A stretch of 56,926 bases of DNA from NCBI GenBank assembly GCA_029884425.1, contig JAOUHV010000013.1, positions 1 through 56,926 of the forward strand. The letters are read 5' to 3'. The stretch comes from Gammaproteobacteria bacterium (lineage in GTDB: Bacteria > Pseudomonadota > Gammaproteobacteria > S012-40). A program made the position numbers and the translations under genes. The stretch's first letter is position 1. Each line of letters starts with the position of its first letter. Shown here one piece after another: positions 2,823 through 28,563 of the stretch. Below the pieces are notes generated by a model. The model was given only the letters and a program-made list of their open reading frames with translations. It did not search any database and had not been told where the DNA came from.

Positions 2823-3110
2823 TCACTCGATAACTTTGGGCACCAGGTAAAGTCCGTTTTCCACGGCAGGCGCAAATTTTTGAAAGTGATCGCGTTGATC
2901 AATCTCAGTAACCTCATCGGAGCGCAAGCGCTGTACAGCATCCAGAGGATGAGCCATCGGAGCCACACCCGAGGTATCGATACTGTTCATTTGTTCAACG
3001 AGATTAAGAATATTAGAAAGGTTTTCGGCGTAAGCAGGAATGTCTTTTTCATCCAGGGACAGACGCGCAAGATGAGCGATTTTTTCGACATCAGCTTTTT
3101 CCAGAGACAT
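2823..3110 (-). CDS. gatC: Asp/Glu-tRNA(Asn/Gln) amidotransferase subunit C
   Basis: GatC is the small belt-like subunit that stabilises the GatA-GatB complex. The 95-residue protein shows the family pattern: [17 protein letters not shown] at the start, a central [16 protein letters not shown], then VAPMAHPLD and the C-terminal [13 protein letters not shown] use the ATG at 3110; an ATG four codons upstream (3122) would add MEQA, which homologues lack. It is the first gene of gatCAB and is transcribed divergently from mreB. An unusually long gap of about 110 bp separates it from gatA; it has no obvious terminator. Confidence 0.95.
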
Positions 3111-3168
3111 GGCTTGCTCCACTTTTGGGGGTTAAAAACAGGATGAGAACCTTACCACAGTTGGCTGC

Positions 3169-3197
3169 TTGCCCAAAGCCTTTCCCATTGGTAGATT
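3169..3197 (+). promoter_or_regulatory. Candidate sigma70 promoter for the mreB block
   Basis: A TTGCCC hexamer (3169-3174) and a TAGATT hexamer (3192-3197) are separated by exactly 17 bp in the divergent gatC/mreB gap, about 30 bp upstream of the mreB ATG. Each matches the consensus at four of six positions. The assignment is by eye only. Confidence 0.4.
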
Positions 3198-3214
3198 ACG
3201 CAACAATTTTATAG

Positions 3215-4273
<1,059 letters not shown>

Positions 4274-4288
4274 TCCAGGAGATCGGCC

Positions 4289-5134
4289 ATTAAACCGCTG
4301 TTCGTCTACGGCAAGGCGACCCTGCCCCGACTCCTAATGTTGGCAACATTGTCCGTTGGCCTGATGGTCGCGGATCATAAGCAACATTATCTGGATGTGG
4401 TCAGGTCGACCTTGTCGATATTCCTCTATCCCCTGGAATACGCAGTAGATCTGCCGTTCAGCGCTGGCAGTTGGGTGGGCGAAAACATGTCGTCCCGCGA
4501 AACGCTGCTGGAAAACAATGCCCTGCTAAAAACCAAAAACGAATTTCTGCAGGCTCAGATGCAGAAATACGTTTCGCTGGAACTGGAAAATCTTCGCCTG
4601 CGCGAACTGCTGGAGGCATCCAAGCGTGTTCCCGATCGTGTGCTTGCTGCCGAACTGTTTGCGCTGGATTTTGACCCCTTCAGCCACAAAGTTCTTATCA
4701 ACAAGGGTCAACGCCACGAAGTTTATCTGGGACAGCCCGTTATTGATGCCTACGGCGTCTTCGGTCAAACCGTCGCGATCACGCCGTTAACGACTTCAGT
4801 CATGCTGATTACCGACCCCAACCATGCGCTTCCCGTGCAATTCAACCGCACAGGCTTGCGCTCTATTGCCACAGGCACGGGCAGTCTGGGTTCGCTGGAT
4901 CTGCAATACATCCCTAACAACGCCGACATCCGCGAGGGCGACCTCGTTGTCACTTCCGGTTTGGGCGGAATTTATCCCAAAGGTTACCCGGTAGCCAAAA
5001 TAACCCGTTTTGAGCAAGACCCCACCCAGCCTTATGCCCGAGTTCAAGCCGAGCCATTGGCGCAACTTGATCGCAGTCGTGAAGTCCTGCTGGTGTGGAC
5101 ACAATCGTCGATCGACGAGGACGTTGCGCCATGA
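4289..5134 (+). CDS. mreC: Rod shape-determining protein MreC, apparent ATT start
   Basis: MreC is a bitopic inner-membrane protein whose periplasmic beta-domains link MreB to PBP2. The reading frame from 4289 gives about 281 residues: a short cytosolic IKPLFVYGK, a membrane segment (about residues 13-31), a coiled coil rich in LLENNALLKTKNEFL, and the MreC beta-barrel (DPNHALPVQ, NADIREGDLVVTSGLGG). Homologues begin M(I)KP(I/L)F, which aligns exactly with the ATT at 4289. An AGGAG at 4277-4281 lies seven bases upstream of it. From the mreB stop at 4271 no ATG, GTG or TTG occurs in frame until 4337, which would delete the conserved N-terminus and half the membrane anchor and has no ribosome site. 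A CTG at 4298 is the only other option. The family call is certain; the ATT start is a strong inference. Confidence 0.93.
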   Translation: MKPLFVYGKATLPRLLMLATLSVGLMVADHKQHYLDVVRSTLSIFLYPLEYAVDLPFSAGSWVGENMSSRETLLENNALLKTKNEFLQAQMQKYVSLELENLRLRELLEASKRVPDRVLAAELFALDFDPFSHKVLINKGQRHEVYLGQPVIDAYGVFGQTVAITPLTTSVMLITDPNHALPVQFNRTGLRSIATGTGSLGSLDLQYIPNNADIREGDLVVTSGLGGIYPKGYPVAKITRFEQDPTQPYARVQAEPLAQLDRSREVLLVWTQSSIDEDVAP

Positions 5135-5616
5135 TCCACCGCCAAAGCCACATCGGCATTATCACCCTGACGTTCATCGCTGCGTTCGCGTTGAGCCTGA
5201 TCCCATTACCACACTGGGCTGGCTCGTTTCGCCCGGCTTTCGTGCTGATGGTGCTTGTCTATTGGTGCATAGCGCTACCGAACTCAGTCAATATCAGCGT
5301 GGGCTGGATCGTTGGTTTCATCACTGACATCATGGTCGGCACCTTGCTGGGGCAGCACGCTCTGGCCTTTGCCATCGTCGCCTTCCTCGCCGTTAAACTG
5401 CATCAACAGATTCGCGTTTACCCTCTTTGGCAACAGGCCCTGAGCGTATTCACCCTGGTGGCACTGGCGCAACTGCTGGTGGTTTGGGTTCTTGGCATCA
5501 TTGGCCAATCGCCCAATTCCTGGCTGTACTGGATGCCCTCGTTCACCAGCGCACTCATCTGGCCTTGGACCTACATGCTTATGCGAGATCTCCAGCGCAA
5601 ATTCGGCGTAACCTGA
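5131..5616 (+). CDS. mreD: Rod shape-determining protein MreD
   Basis: MreD is the small multispanning inner-membrane partner of MreC. The protein (161 residues from the ATG at 5131) is hydrophobic throughout, with about five membrane segments, and contains the family-typical WRPAFVLMVLVYW-like stretch (here FRPAFVLMVLVYW) and GWIVGFITDIMVGTLLGQHAL. The start overlaps the mreC stop as ATGA, indicating translational coupling. An upstream in-frame start at 5095 would overlap mreC by 40 bp and is unlikely. Confidence 0.94.
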   Translation: MIHRQSHIGIITLTFIAAFALSLIPLPHWAGSFRPAFVLMVLVYWCIALPNSVNISVGWIVGFITDIMVGTLLGQHALAFAIVAFLAVKLHQQIRVYPLWQQALSVFTLVALAQLLVVWVLGIIGQSPNSWLYWMPSFTSALIWPWTYMLMRDLQRKFGVT

Positions 5617-5632
5617 GGCGATGCGATAATCC

Positions 5633-7480
5633 ATGGCCAAGGACATTTTACGCGATCATATTCAAGAAACCTCGCTGTTTTCCAACCGTATCATCACTGC
5701 CGCTGTCATTACGTTCATACTGCTGCTGGCTTTGATCGTCCGGATGGTGTACCTGCAAATCGTCAAATTCGAACACTTCAGCACCCTGTCGCAAAACAAC
5801 CGCGTTGCGCTCGTTCCCATGCCGCCCACGCGGGGCCTGATTTATGACCGCAGCGGCGTGCTGATGGCGGAAAACATTCCATCGTTCACCCTGGAAATCA
5901 CGCCCGCCCATATCGAGGACATGGACGATGTTTTGCGCCGACTTGGCAAACTGATCGAAATCACCCCACGTGATCTCGAAAAATTCCACAAGGCGCGCAG
6001 ACAAACATCACGCTTCAAACCGGTGCCACTGCGTTTCCGCCTCACCGAGGAAGAAACCGCCAAGTTTGCTTCGCGCAGCCACTTATTCCCTGGCGTGGAA
6101 ATTCAGGCACGTCTGACCCGTTATTACCCGTTTGGCCCACTGGGCGTTCAGGCCGTGGGTTACGTGGGCCGCATCAGCGAAGACGAAATGGCCACACTGG
6201 ATCAGGCCGAATACAACGGCAGCACCCACATCGGCAAAACCGGGGTTGAAAGTTTTTACGAAACCGAACTCCACGGCAAGGTGGGCTACAAGAAAGTAGA
6301 AACCAACGCCCGGGGGCGCATTTTGCGCATTTTGGAAGAAACACCACCCCAACCCGGCAATAACTTAATCCTCAATCTGGACGCGGCCACCCAACTGTCT
6401 GCCGAAAATGCCCTGGGTGCTGAGCGTGGTGCGGTTGTCGCTATCGATATCAAAACCGGCGGTGTCGTTGCCTTGGCCAGCATGCCCAATTACGACCCCA
6501 ACCTGTTCGTCAACGGTATCGATTCCAAGACCTATGCCGAGCTTAGTGGCTCACCCGACCAGCCATTATTTAACCGCGCCATCCGCGGCCGCTACCCACC
6601 AGGCTCCACCATCAAACCCATGGTTGGCCTGGCGGGCCTGGAATACGGCTTAAGCAAACCCGAACAGGCGATCGATTGCTACGGCTGGTACAGCCTCAAA
6701 AACGACGACCACCGCTATCGTGACTGGAAAAAAGAAGGCCACGGTCACACCAATCTGAATCTGGCCATCGTCGAATCGTGTGACGTGTACTTCTACGATC
6801 TGGCTCTGGATCTGGGTATAGATCGCCTGTACGAATACATGAGTCATTTTGGTCTGGGCAAACGTACCAACATTGATATTGGCGGCGAACTGCCCGGTCT
6901 GATGCCCTCGCGTGAATGGAAGCGCCGCACTAAAAATGAATCCTGGTATCCCGGCGAAACTCTGATCACCGGCATCGGCCAGGGCTTTAATTTGACCACA
7001 CCACTGCAGCTGGCCTCTGCAACCTCGCAATTGGCAGGCTATGGCACCGGCAAACGCCCCCGCCTGGCTTATGCGTTTGAGGATTACCTGACCAAGCAGC
7101 AAACCATTCTGCCAGCCAAACCACTCGACCCCATCCCGATTAACAACCGCTCCAACTGGGAAGAGGTTATCCAGGGCATGAAGGATGTCGTGCATGCAGC
7201 CCGCGGTACTGCTCGTGGCATTAGCCGCGATGTGCAATACACCATCGCTGGAAAAACGGGTACTGCCCAGGTGTTTGGTATCGCCCAGGGAGAACAATAC
7301 GTCAAAGAGGATTTGGACAAACGGCTACATGACCACGCATTGTTTATTGGCTTCGCCCCGGTCGAAGACCCTGTCATTGCCGTCGCCGTCATTGTCGAGA
7401 ACGGTGGTAGCGGTGGCAGCGTTGCCGCCCCTGTCGCCCGCCAGGTGATGGACACCTACATGCTGAGGACCCGCCCATGA
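5633..7480 (+). CDS. mrdA: Penicillin-binding protein 2, elongasome transpeptidase
   Basis: PBP2 cross-links peptidoglycan during side-wall growth, paired with RodA. The protein has 615 residues. An N-terminal membrane anchor (about 20-42) is followed by the PBP dimerisation (pedestal) domain, with RGLIYDRSGVLMAENIPSF, and the transpeptidase domain. The catalytic serine is in GSTIK at about S325 with K328. The second motif reads SCD (VESCDVYFYDLA), as is usual for PBP2, and the third is K541-T-G in AGKTGTAQ. It lies 16 bp after mreD and overlaps rodA by four bases (ATGA). All catalytic motifs are intact. Confidence 0.97.
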   Translation: MAKDILRDHIQETSLFSNRIITAAVITFILLLALIVRMVYLQIVKFEHFSTLSQNNRVALVPMPPTRGLIYDRSGVLMAENIPSFTLEITPAHIEDMDDVLRRLGKLIEITPRDLEKFHKARRQTSRFKPVPLRFRLTEEETAKFASRSHLFPGVEIQARLTRYYPFGPLGVQAVGYVGRISEDEMATLDQAEYNGSTHIGKTGVESFYETELHGKVGYKKVETNARGRILRILEETPPQPGNNLILNLDAATQLSAENALGAERGAVVAIDIKTGGVVALASMPNYDPNLFVNGIDSKTYAELSGSPDQPLFNRAIRGRYPPGSTIKPMVGLAGLEYGLSKPEQAIDCYGWYSLKNDDHRYRDWKKEGHGHTNLNLAIVESCDVYFYDLALDLGIDRLYEYMSHFGLGKRTNIDIGGELPGLMPSREWKRRTKNESWYPGETLITGIGQGFNLTTPLQLASATSQLAGYGTGKRPRLAYAFEDYLTKQQTILPAKPLDPIPINNRSNWEEVIQGMKDVVHAARGTARGISRDVQYTIAGKTGTAQVFGIAQGEQYVKEDLDKRLHDHALFIGFAPVEDPVIAVAVIVENGGSGGSVAAPVARQVMDTYMLRTRP

Positions 7481-27444: not shown

Positions 27445-28563
27445 TTAATCATTCTGTTTGCCGTGTTTGCGCCCCAGGTATTCATGACTGCGCATTTCAA
27501 ACAAGCGGCTTTGGGTTCGTTGAAACGGGAACGCCAGGCGTCCCTCACCATACAATTCATCCGGCGCTTTTTCTGCGACCACGACCAGCTTCACGCCGTG
27601 ATCATACAGCGCATCCACCAACTGGATAAAACGCTGTGCTGCGTCGTCCCGCCCGCCCCGCATGGACGGGACCCGCCCCAGTAGCAAGGTCTGGTACTCC
27701 TGGGCAATGGCGATGTAATCCAATGATGATCGAGGTGTATCACAAAGCGCGGCAAAATCAAACCAAACGACATCACCATGACAGCCACGAACCGGAATTT
27801 GCCGACCGTTCACCGTCATCACTCCCGACGCTGGGGTCTGCTGGGTCACTTTGGCAAACTCCGCCGACAGCAGCTCATCACCTTGATCAAACCCCAGCAC
27901 ATGATAGGTTCCGTCTTTTTCCAGCAACTGCAACCGATAGTCGGTGGCGCTGTCCAGAAACACGGTTTCGGTGTGCTGCTTCAGCAGTCCGATGGCCGGC
28001 ACAAACCGGCTGCGCTGCAAGCCGTTGAGGTACAAGTCGTCCGGCGCAATGTTCGAGGTCGTCACCAACGTCACCCCTTGGGCAAACAATCCCTGCAGGA
28101 AGCCGGCAAGTATCATGGCATCGGTGATGTCCAGCACCTGAAACTCGTCCAGACACAGCACGCGAATTTGCGCCGCCACCTGTGCCGCCACCAGCGGCAT
28201 CGGGTCCGGCGTTTTGGGTAAATCCTTCAGCGCCTGATGAATGTCTTTCATAAAATGCTGAAAATGCACCCGTCGCTTTTGCGTAAACGGCAATGCGTCG
28301 AAAAATGTGTCCATCAGGTAGGTTTTACCGCGCCCGGTATCGCCCCACAGATACAGTCCACACTCCGGCGCCTTGGCCGACCGCTTTCCCATCAGCCGAC
28401 CTAACAGTCCCATCGCCTCCTGTGGCTGCAGCAAACGCTCATACAAATCCTGCAGCCGCTGCACTGCCCGCAACTGCGCCGCATCGGGCGTCAAGTCGCC
28501 CCTGGCCAGATCAGACTGGTAGCGCTGCATCGGTGACATAGGATTTTCGGTAGCGGCCAACAT
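27445..28563 (-). CDS. zapE: Cell division ATPase ZapE (AFG1 family)
   Basis: ZapE is an AAA-type ATPase that associates with the Z-ring under stress in E. coli; its mitochondrial relatives are AFG1/LACE1. The 372-residue protein has Walker A in LWGDTGRGKTYLMD, Walker B in VLCLDEFQVLDITDAM, and sensor-like TTSNIAPDDLYLNGLQRSRFVPAI. It ends with RTQSRLFEMRSHEYLGRKH, which matches the family C-terminus. A GGGGG stretch lies just before the ATG; a second ATG eight codons in is possible. Confidence 0.94.
   Translation of the reverse strand: MLAATENPMSPMQRYQSDLARGDLTPDAAQLRAVQRLQDLYERLLQPQEAMGLLGRLMGKRSAKAPECGLYLWGDTGRGKTYLMDTFFDALPFTQKRRVHFQHFMKDIHQALKDLPKTPDPMPLVAAQVAAQIRVLCLDEFQVLDITDAMILAGFLQGLFAQGVTLVTTSNIAPDDLYLNGLQRSRFVPAIGLLKQHTETVFLDSATDYRLQLLEKDGTYHVLGFDQGDELLSAEFAKVTQQTPASGVMTVNGRQIPVRGCHGDVVWFDFAALCDTPRSSLDYIAIAQEYQTLLLGRVPSMRGGRDDAAQRFIQLVDALYDHGVKLVVVAEKAPDELYGEGRLAFPFQRTQSRLFEMRSHEYLGRKHGKQND

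Follow-up and report, generated by a model that had tools for sequence, protein, structure and literature searches.

A conserved non-AUG start codon is predicted for the cell-shape gene mreC in much of Gammaproteobacteria

We find that the cell-shape gene mreC probably begins on ATT in the window studied here (the whole stretch of 56,926 nt, contig JAOUHV010000013.1 of a Gammaproteobacteria bacterium), and that about two thirds of the sampled gammaproteobacterial families, that of P. aeruginosa among them, start mreC on ATT, ATC, ATA or GTT. We consider it highly probable that mreC is read by fMet-tRNA from a near-cognate codon behind a strong Shine-Dalgarno sequence, that the weak pairing, penalised by initiation factor IF3, keeps MreC low relative to MreB, and that this codon class is old. 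The features of the mreB-mreC-mreD locus in the window are as follows.

3227..4273, + strand: mreB, with an ATG start and a TAA stop at 4271-4273 (open reading frame and sequence).
4277..4281, + strand: Shine-Dalgarno AGGAG of mreC, 7 nt 5' of the start codon (sequence).
4289..4291, + strand: predicted mreC start codon ATT (aligned-codon comparison; conservation begins at this codon).
4289..5134, + strand: mreC coding sequence, 281 residues and the stop (PF04085, TIGR00219).
4337..4339, + strand: ATG, the first canonical in-frame codon of mreC, rejected as the start as it costs 16 codons of conserved N-terminus.
5131..5616, + strand: mreD, whose ATG start overlaps the mreC stop (ATGA; sequence).

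Read from 4274, the mreC frame gives SRRSA-IKPLFVYGKATLPRL (codons S R R S A I K P L F V Y G K...). The conserved (I)KPLF segment opens at ATT 4289-4291, and the N-terminus of the protein would be fM-KPLFVYGK. The initial annotation had stated that the frame holds no ATG, GTG or TTG between the mreB stop and 4337, and that the ATT at 4289, 7 nt past AGGAG, opens IKPLFVYGK. Direct reading of the sequence confirms the second statement and bears out the first to the base (none from 4274 to 4336). The frame matches PF04085 (E 3.8e-41, profile search) and scores 185.1 bits against TIGR00219, above the curated cut-off of 92.75; with its place in the mreB-mreC-mreD operon, this identifies the gene as mreC. 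An Rfam search of 2900-5700, around the mreB/mreC junction, matched no known RNA element.

A comparison of this codon in related genomes had been proposed with the initial annotation. MreC loci were drawn from relatives of the window, a class-wide sample and named contigs, and the codon aligned with the ATT was read in each. Among 168 distinct alignable loci, 156 carry a non-canonical codon (65 ATA, 49 ATT, 37 ATC and 5 GTT) and 12 a canonical one (11 ATG, 1 GTG). Because Methylococcales and metagenome-assembled genomes weigh heavily in the locus sample, the result is best quoted by family: the class sample covers 87 families, of which 55 show non-canonical codons throughout, 30 canonical codons throughout and 2 both. 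Up to 36 of these assignments are tentative, having been made manually, for the most part in divergent lineages that lack the KPLF motif, and ten loci were left uncalled. All 11 callable genomes of the window's own family are non-canonical (9 ATT, 2 ATC). Such agreement goes far beyond what chance would give. The ATT start had been put forward as a rarity; for mreC in Gammaproteobacteria, a non-canonical start is the commoner state.

Relatives differ in the third base of the codon, which can be A, C or T. On the MreC tree, well-supported branches show at least 5 changes of codon state and the best tree has 15, compared to about 36 with shuffled labels, gains and losses not being told apart. 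This indicates a clustered, old trait that has switched repeatedly, and the codon class itself appears to be old in Gammaproteobacteria. Alphaproteobacterial-type MreC frames, judged by eye only, are missing the KPLF motif, and in most of them a canonical codon stands close to where the start is expected; on these grounds we set aside the idea that the trait reaches beyond Gammaproteobacteria. A natural GTT start would be unusual. The five GTT loci (L033, L042, L043, L044, L179) have the codon behind GGAGG and fall in a single supported clade; one comes from a Halioglobus assembly, three from Gammaproteobacteria/Chromatiales assemblies and one from a further family.

The neighbouring genes behave differently. 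At the same loci, mreB starts on ATG in 122 of 123 cases (TTG in the other), exactly at the aligned codon in 108 of 123, and the mreD start is canonical in 127 of 127; these controls are somewhat lenient, since the closest canonical codon was accepted up to 5 codons away for mreB and up to about 10 for mreD. Between the mreB stop and the mreC codon lie 15 nt in the window and a median of 90 nt in relatives (range 6-1794). With such a median, close translational coupling of mreC to mreB cannot hold throughout, and we rejected it as a general explanation; in the window itself it is possible.

Non-canonical codons and strong ribosome binding sites go together. Median Shine-Dalgarno pairing is -8.2 kcal/mol for non-AUG mreC and -3.8 kcal/mol for canonical mreC, compared to -5.4 for mreB and -2.7 for background. 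The difference between non-AUG and canonical mreC is significant by loci (P 3.5e-9) and by families (P 2.7e-7), and a tree-corrected test goes in the same direction on 5 supported pairs, too few for significance. A weak Shine-Dalgarno sequence with ATG and a strong one with a non-AUG codon would fit a shared low initiation rate. The strong sequence may simply be required for a poor codon to work; nevertheless, such a need would not explain the weak sites of ATG-type mreC. The weak codon is also not indispensable, given ATG in E. coli and in about a third of families.

The same trade-off bears on whether the codon is under selection at all. Translation could start at ATT or ATC with the codon nearly neutral, a strong Shine-Dalgarno sequence having freed its third base, with neither selection for low output nor control by IF3. 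The variable third base and the strong sites of the non-AUG genes are what such drift would give. Drift should, however, often yield and keep ATG, which is absent from whole groups (about 60 Methylococcales and all 11 genomes of the window's family); it is never seen in mreB or mreD of the same operon, and it sits poorly with the weak Shine-Dalgarno sequences of ATG-type mreC. We therefore regard a neutral codon as unlikely.

A second possibility is that translation begins at ATG 4337, or at the next canonical codon in relatives, and that the IKPLF segment is untranslated. This is the choice of gene callers, and the P. aeruginosa record is annotated from a codon 16 downstream. Yet the segment (IKPLF...GPS...R) is conserved as protein in 52 families and is included in E. 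coli MreC; a start at 4337 would cost 16 codons of it, as the initial annotation had noted. The position of the downstream canonical codon is variable, and in relatives this codon shows no peak of Shine-Dalgarno spacing. With the conserved N-terminus lost and the peak missing, we rejected ATG 4337; a start there is very improbable.

The main rival to initiation at the ATT is that the codon encodes an internal isoleucine and that translation starts further upstream. ATA, ATT and ATC all encode isoleucine, and a conserved isoleucine would likewise never show ATG. Moreover, 27 of the 156 non-canonical loci have an upstream in-frame canonical codon, a few of them just 2-4 codons away. In 128 of the 156, however, no canonical codon follows the upstream in-frame stop before the aligned codon is reached. 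The stop often lies 1-5 codons upstream, which contradicts an internal position in those loci, and in 16 of the 156 a single codon separates the two. Shine-Dalgarno spacing suits a start at the aligned codon: among the 137 non-AUG loci with a match of at least 4 bases, 125 have an aligned spacing of 5-9 nt. ATA is also over-used relative to isoleucine usage in the same genes, making up 47 of 62 codons in Methylococcales where 9.9 would be expected (a figure inflated by relatedness) and 18 of 89 outside this order where 7.7 would be expected (p about 2e-4).

Conservation likewise jumps at the codon, where I, K, L and F reach 3.5-4.3 bits with one locus per family, the I partly through the alignment procedure. 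The codons 5' of it lack conservation as protein, only the Shine-Dalgarno sequence and a C at -2 being conserved, and other lineages have ATG in the very same position, such as E. coli (MKPIF) and Thiomargarita. Upstream stops, ATA excess, Shine-Dalgarno spacing and the conservation boundary led us to reject the internal isoleucine, to which we give hardly any weight. A sequencing or assembly error at 4289-4291, conceivable in one draft assembly, can be dismissed on relatives, as all independent genomes of the same family have ATT or ATC there, and we put its probability close to nil.

Initiation at the ATT, as proposed in the initial annotation, is thus strongly supported by a conserved codon class, a fixed Shine-Dalgarno spacing, in-frame stops just upstream and ATG exactly at this position in some homologues. 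As a separate observation, the C at -2 (4287-4288 in the window) occurs in 43 of 57 non-AUG mreC families compared to 6 of 28 for canonical mreC and 16 of 37 for mreB, counts made without tree correction.

Among named genomes, P. aeruginosa has TAG GAG CGG ATC ATC AAA CCG CTA TTC at this position, with an in-frame TAG three codons before ATC 219 and the next canonical codon about 15-16 codons downstream. The GenBank record (CP123788.1) annotates mreC from GTG 267, 16 codons past ATC 219. On this sequence we read the gene as starting on ATC 219 and its annotation as 16 codons late, although the exact start may be the neighbouring ATC at 216, one codon earlier. The record itself (L300, 219-269 at the mreC start) is 1131 bp long and filed as a plasmid; as it holds only the end of mreB and mreC, it looks like a chromosomal fragment. 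Two more genomes with a Pseudomonas-like MreC have ATC, and E. coli, Aeromonas caviae and Thiomargarita have ATG.

How could such a codon act? Near-cognate starts pair imperfectly with the initiator tRNA and are penalised by IF3, with infC and Streptomyces sigR as worked examples (PMC5472188). By analogy, initiator fMet-tRNA would read the near-cognate mreC codon (ATT in the window; ATT, ATC, ATA or rarely GTT in relatives), on which the strong Shine-Dalgarno sequence would position initiation. IF3 would penalise the weak codon-anticodon match, and MreC would be made at a low rate compared with MreB, its operon partner. The third base would drift among A, C and T, and ATG lineages would mostly carry a weak Shine-Dalgarno sequence instead. 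Because the IF3 penalty is known at near-cognate starts and infC of the window genome appears to use ATC, we assume slow initiation of mreC, with fMet, at the ATT; control by IF3 would follow from known biochemistry.

The low MreC output suggested in the initial annotation finds indirect support, both in the weak Shine-Dalgarno sequences of ATG-type mreC and in the harm of excess MreC, which makes E. coli cells shorter and wider (PMC7793260). About 180 MreC copies per E. coli cell are cited in the same study (PMC7793260).

Conserved AUH-start genes are already a known kind, and mreC would be a new addition, of unusually wide distribution, to the small class of infC, pcnB and sigR. Like genes of this type, it has a predicted start other than ATG, GTG, TTG or CTG with a well-placed Shine-Dalgarno sequence and no usable canonical in-frame start nearby, and its non-canonical codon is conserved among homologues.

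The closest parallel is infC, which has a conserved near-cognate AUH start (AUU/AUC) behind a good Shine-Dalgarno sequence. It differs in regulating itself via IF3; mreC acts in cell shape and is not known to be linked to IF3. At the infC start, most relatives have ATC, ATT or ATA, the codon class known for IF3 autoregulation. In the window genome, infC (L281, contig C14, 36400-38600) appears to start on ATC after GGAGG (GGAGGAATAACTC ATC GCT), and the organism thus seems to use the same codon class at the best-known IF3-controlled gene.

E. coli pcnB has an AUU start, thought to hold down a protein harmful in excess; mreC is comparable in its near-cognate start and in the presumed low level of a protein harmful in excess, but the pcnB product is an RNA polyadenylation enzyme. 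In the window genome, pcnB (L286, contig C16, near 27626-28003) may start on ATC (AAAGAGGAAACACA ATC CGC GTG), with a GTG two codons on, and several family members also have no obvious canonical start there.

Streptomyces sigR, mis-annotated in its turn, has a GTC start behind a strong ribosome binding site; the weakness of this start fixes the ratio to a partner protein encoded in the same operon, and the start is repressed by IF3 (PMC5472188). Its expression goes down with more IF3 and up in IF3 fidelity mutants (PMC5472188). Both are genes of regulatory weight with a conserved non-canonical start, a strong Shine-Dalgarno sequence and a mis-annotated N-terminus; sigR uses GTC in one genus, as established by experiment, while the mreC case (AUH, with GTT in five loci) extends across a class and comes from sequence comparison. 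Finally, E. coli mreC is the same gene with its start codon at the same position (MKPIF), but combines ATG with a poor Shine-Dalgarno sequence (-3.0 kcal/mol), where mreC of the window pairs a near-cognate codon with a good site.

To our knowledge, bacteria have only a very small number of established natural near-cognate starts, and none of these lies in a cell-shape gene. We found no statement of a non-canonical mreC start in open-access full text, the scope of our search.

Conservation of the non-AUG start suggests that weak translation of mreC has long been maintained and that its first residues are mis-annotated. With infC and sigR as precedents, we infer that cell shape might sense translation capacity through the level of IF3. 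A stronger version is possible but doubtful: mreC may be genuinely IF3-controlled in most gammaproteobacterial families, including the subgroup with GTT starts (Halioglobus, Chromatiales and one more family). The dose of MreC, the MreC/MreB ratio and the activation of wall elongation would then follow initiation-factor balance, so that the condition of the translation apparatus would bear on wall growth and cell width. If the start holds across much of the class, database entries would lack the first ~16 MreC residues, the P. aeruginosa record being an example, and studies of MreC topology and structure may rest on a truncated protein. The gene would also offer a natural set for studying how a weak start codon fixes subunit ratios in an operon, and whether the level of IF3 reaches cell shape.
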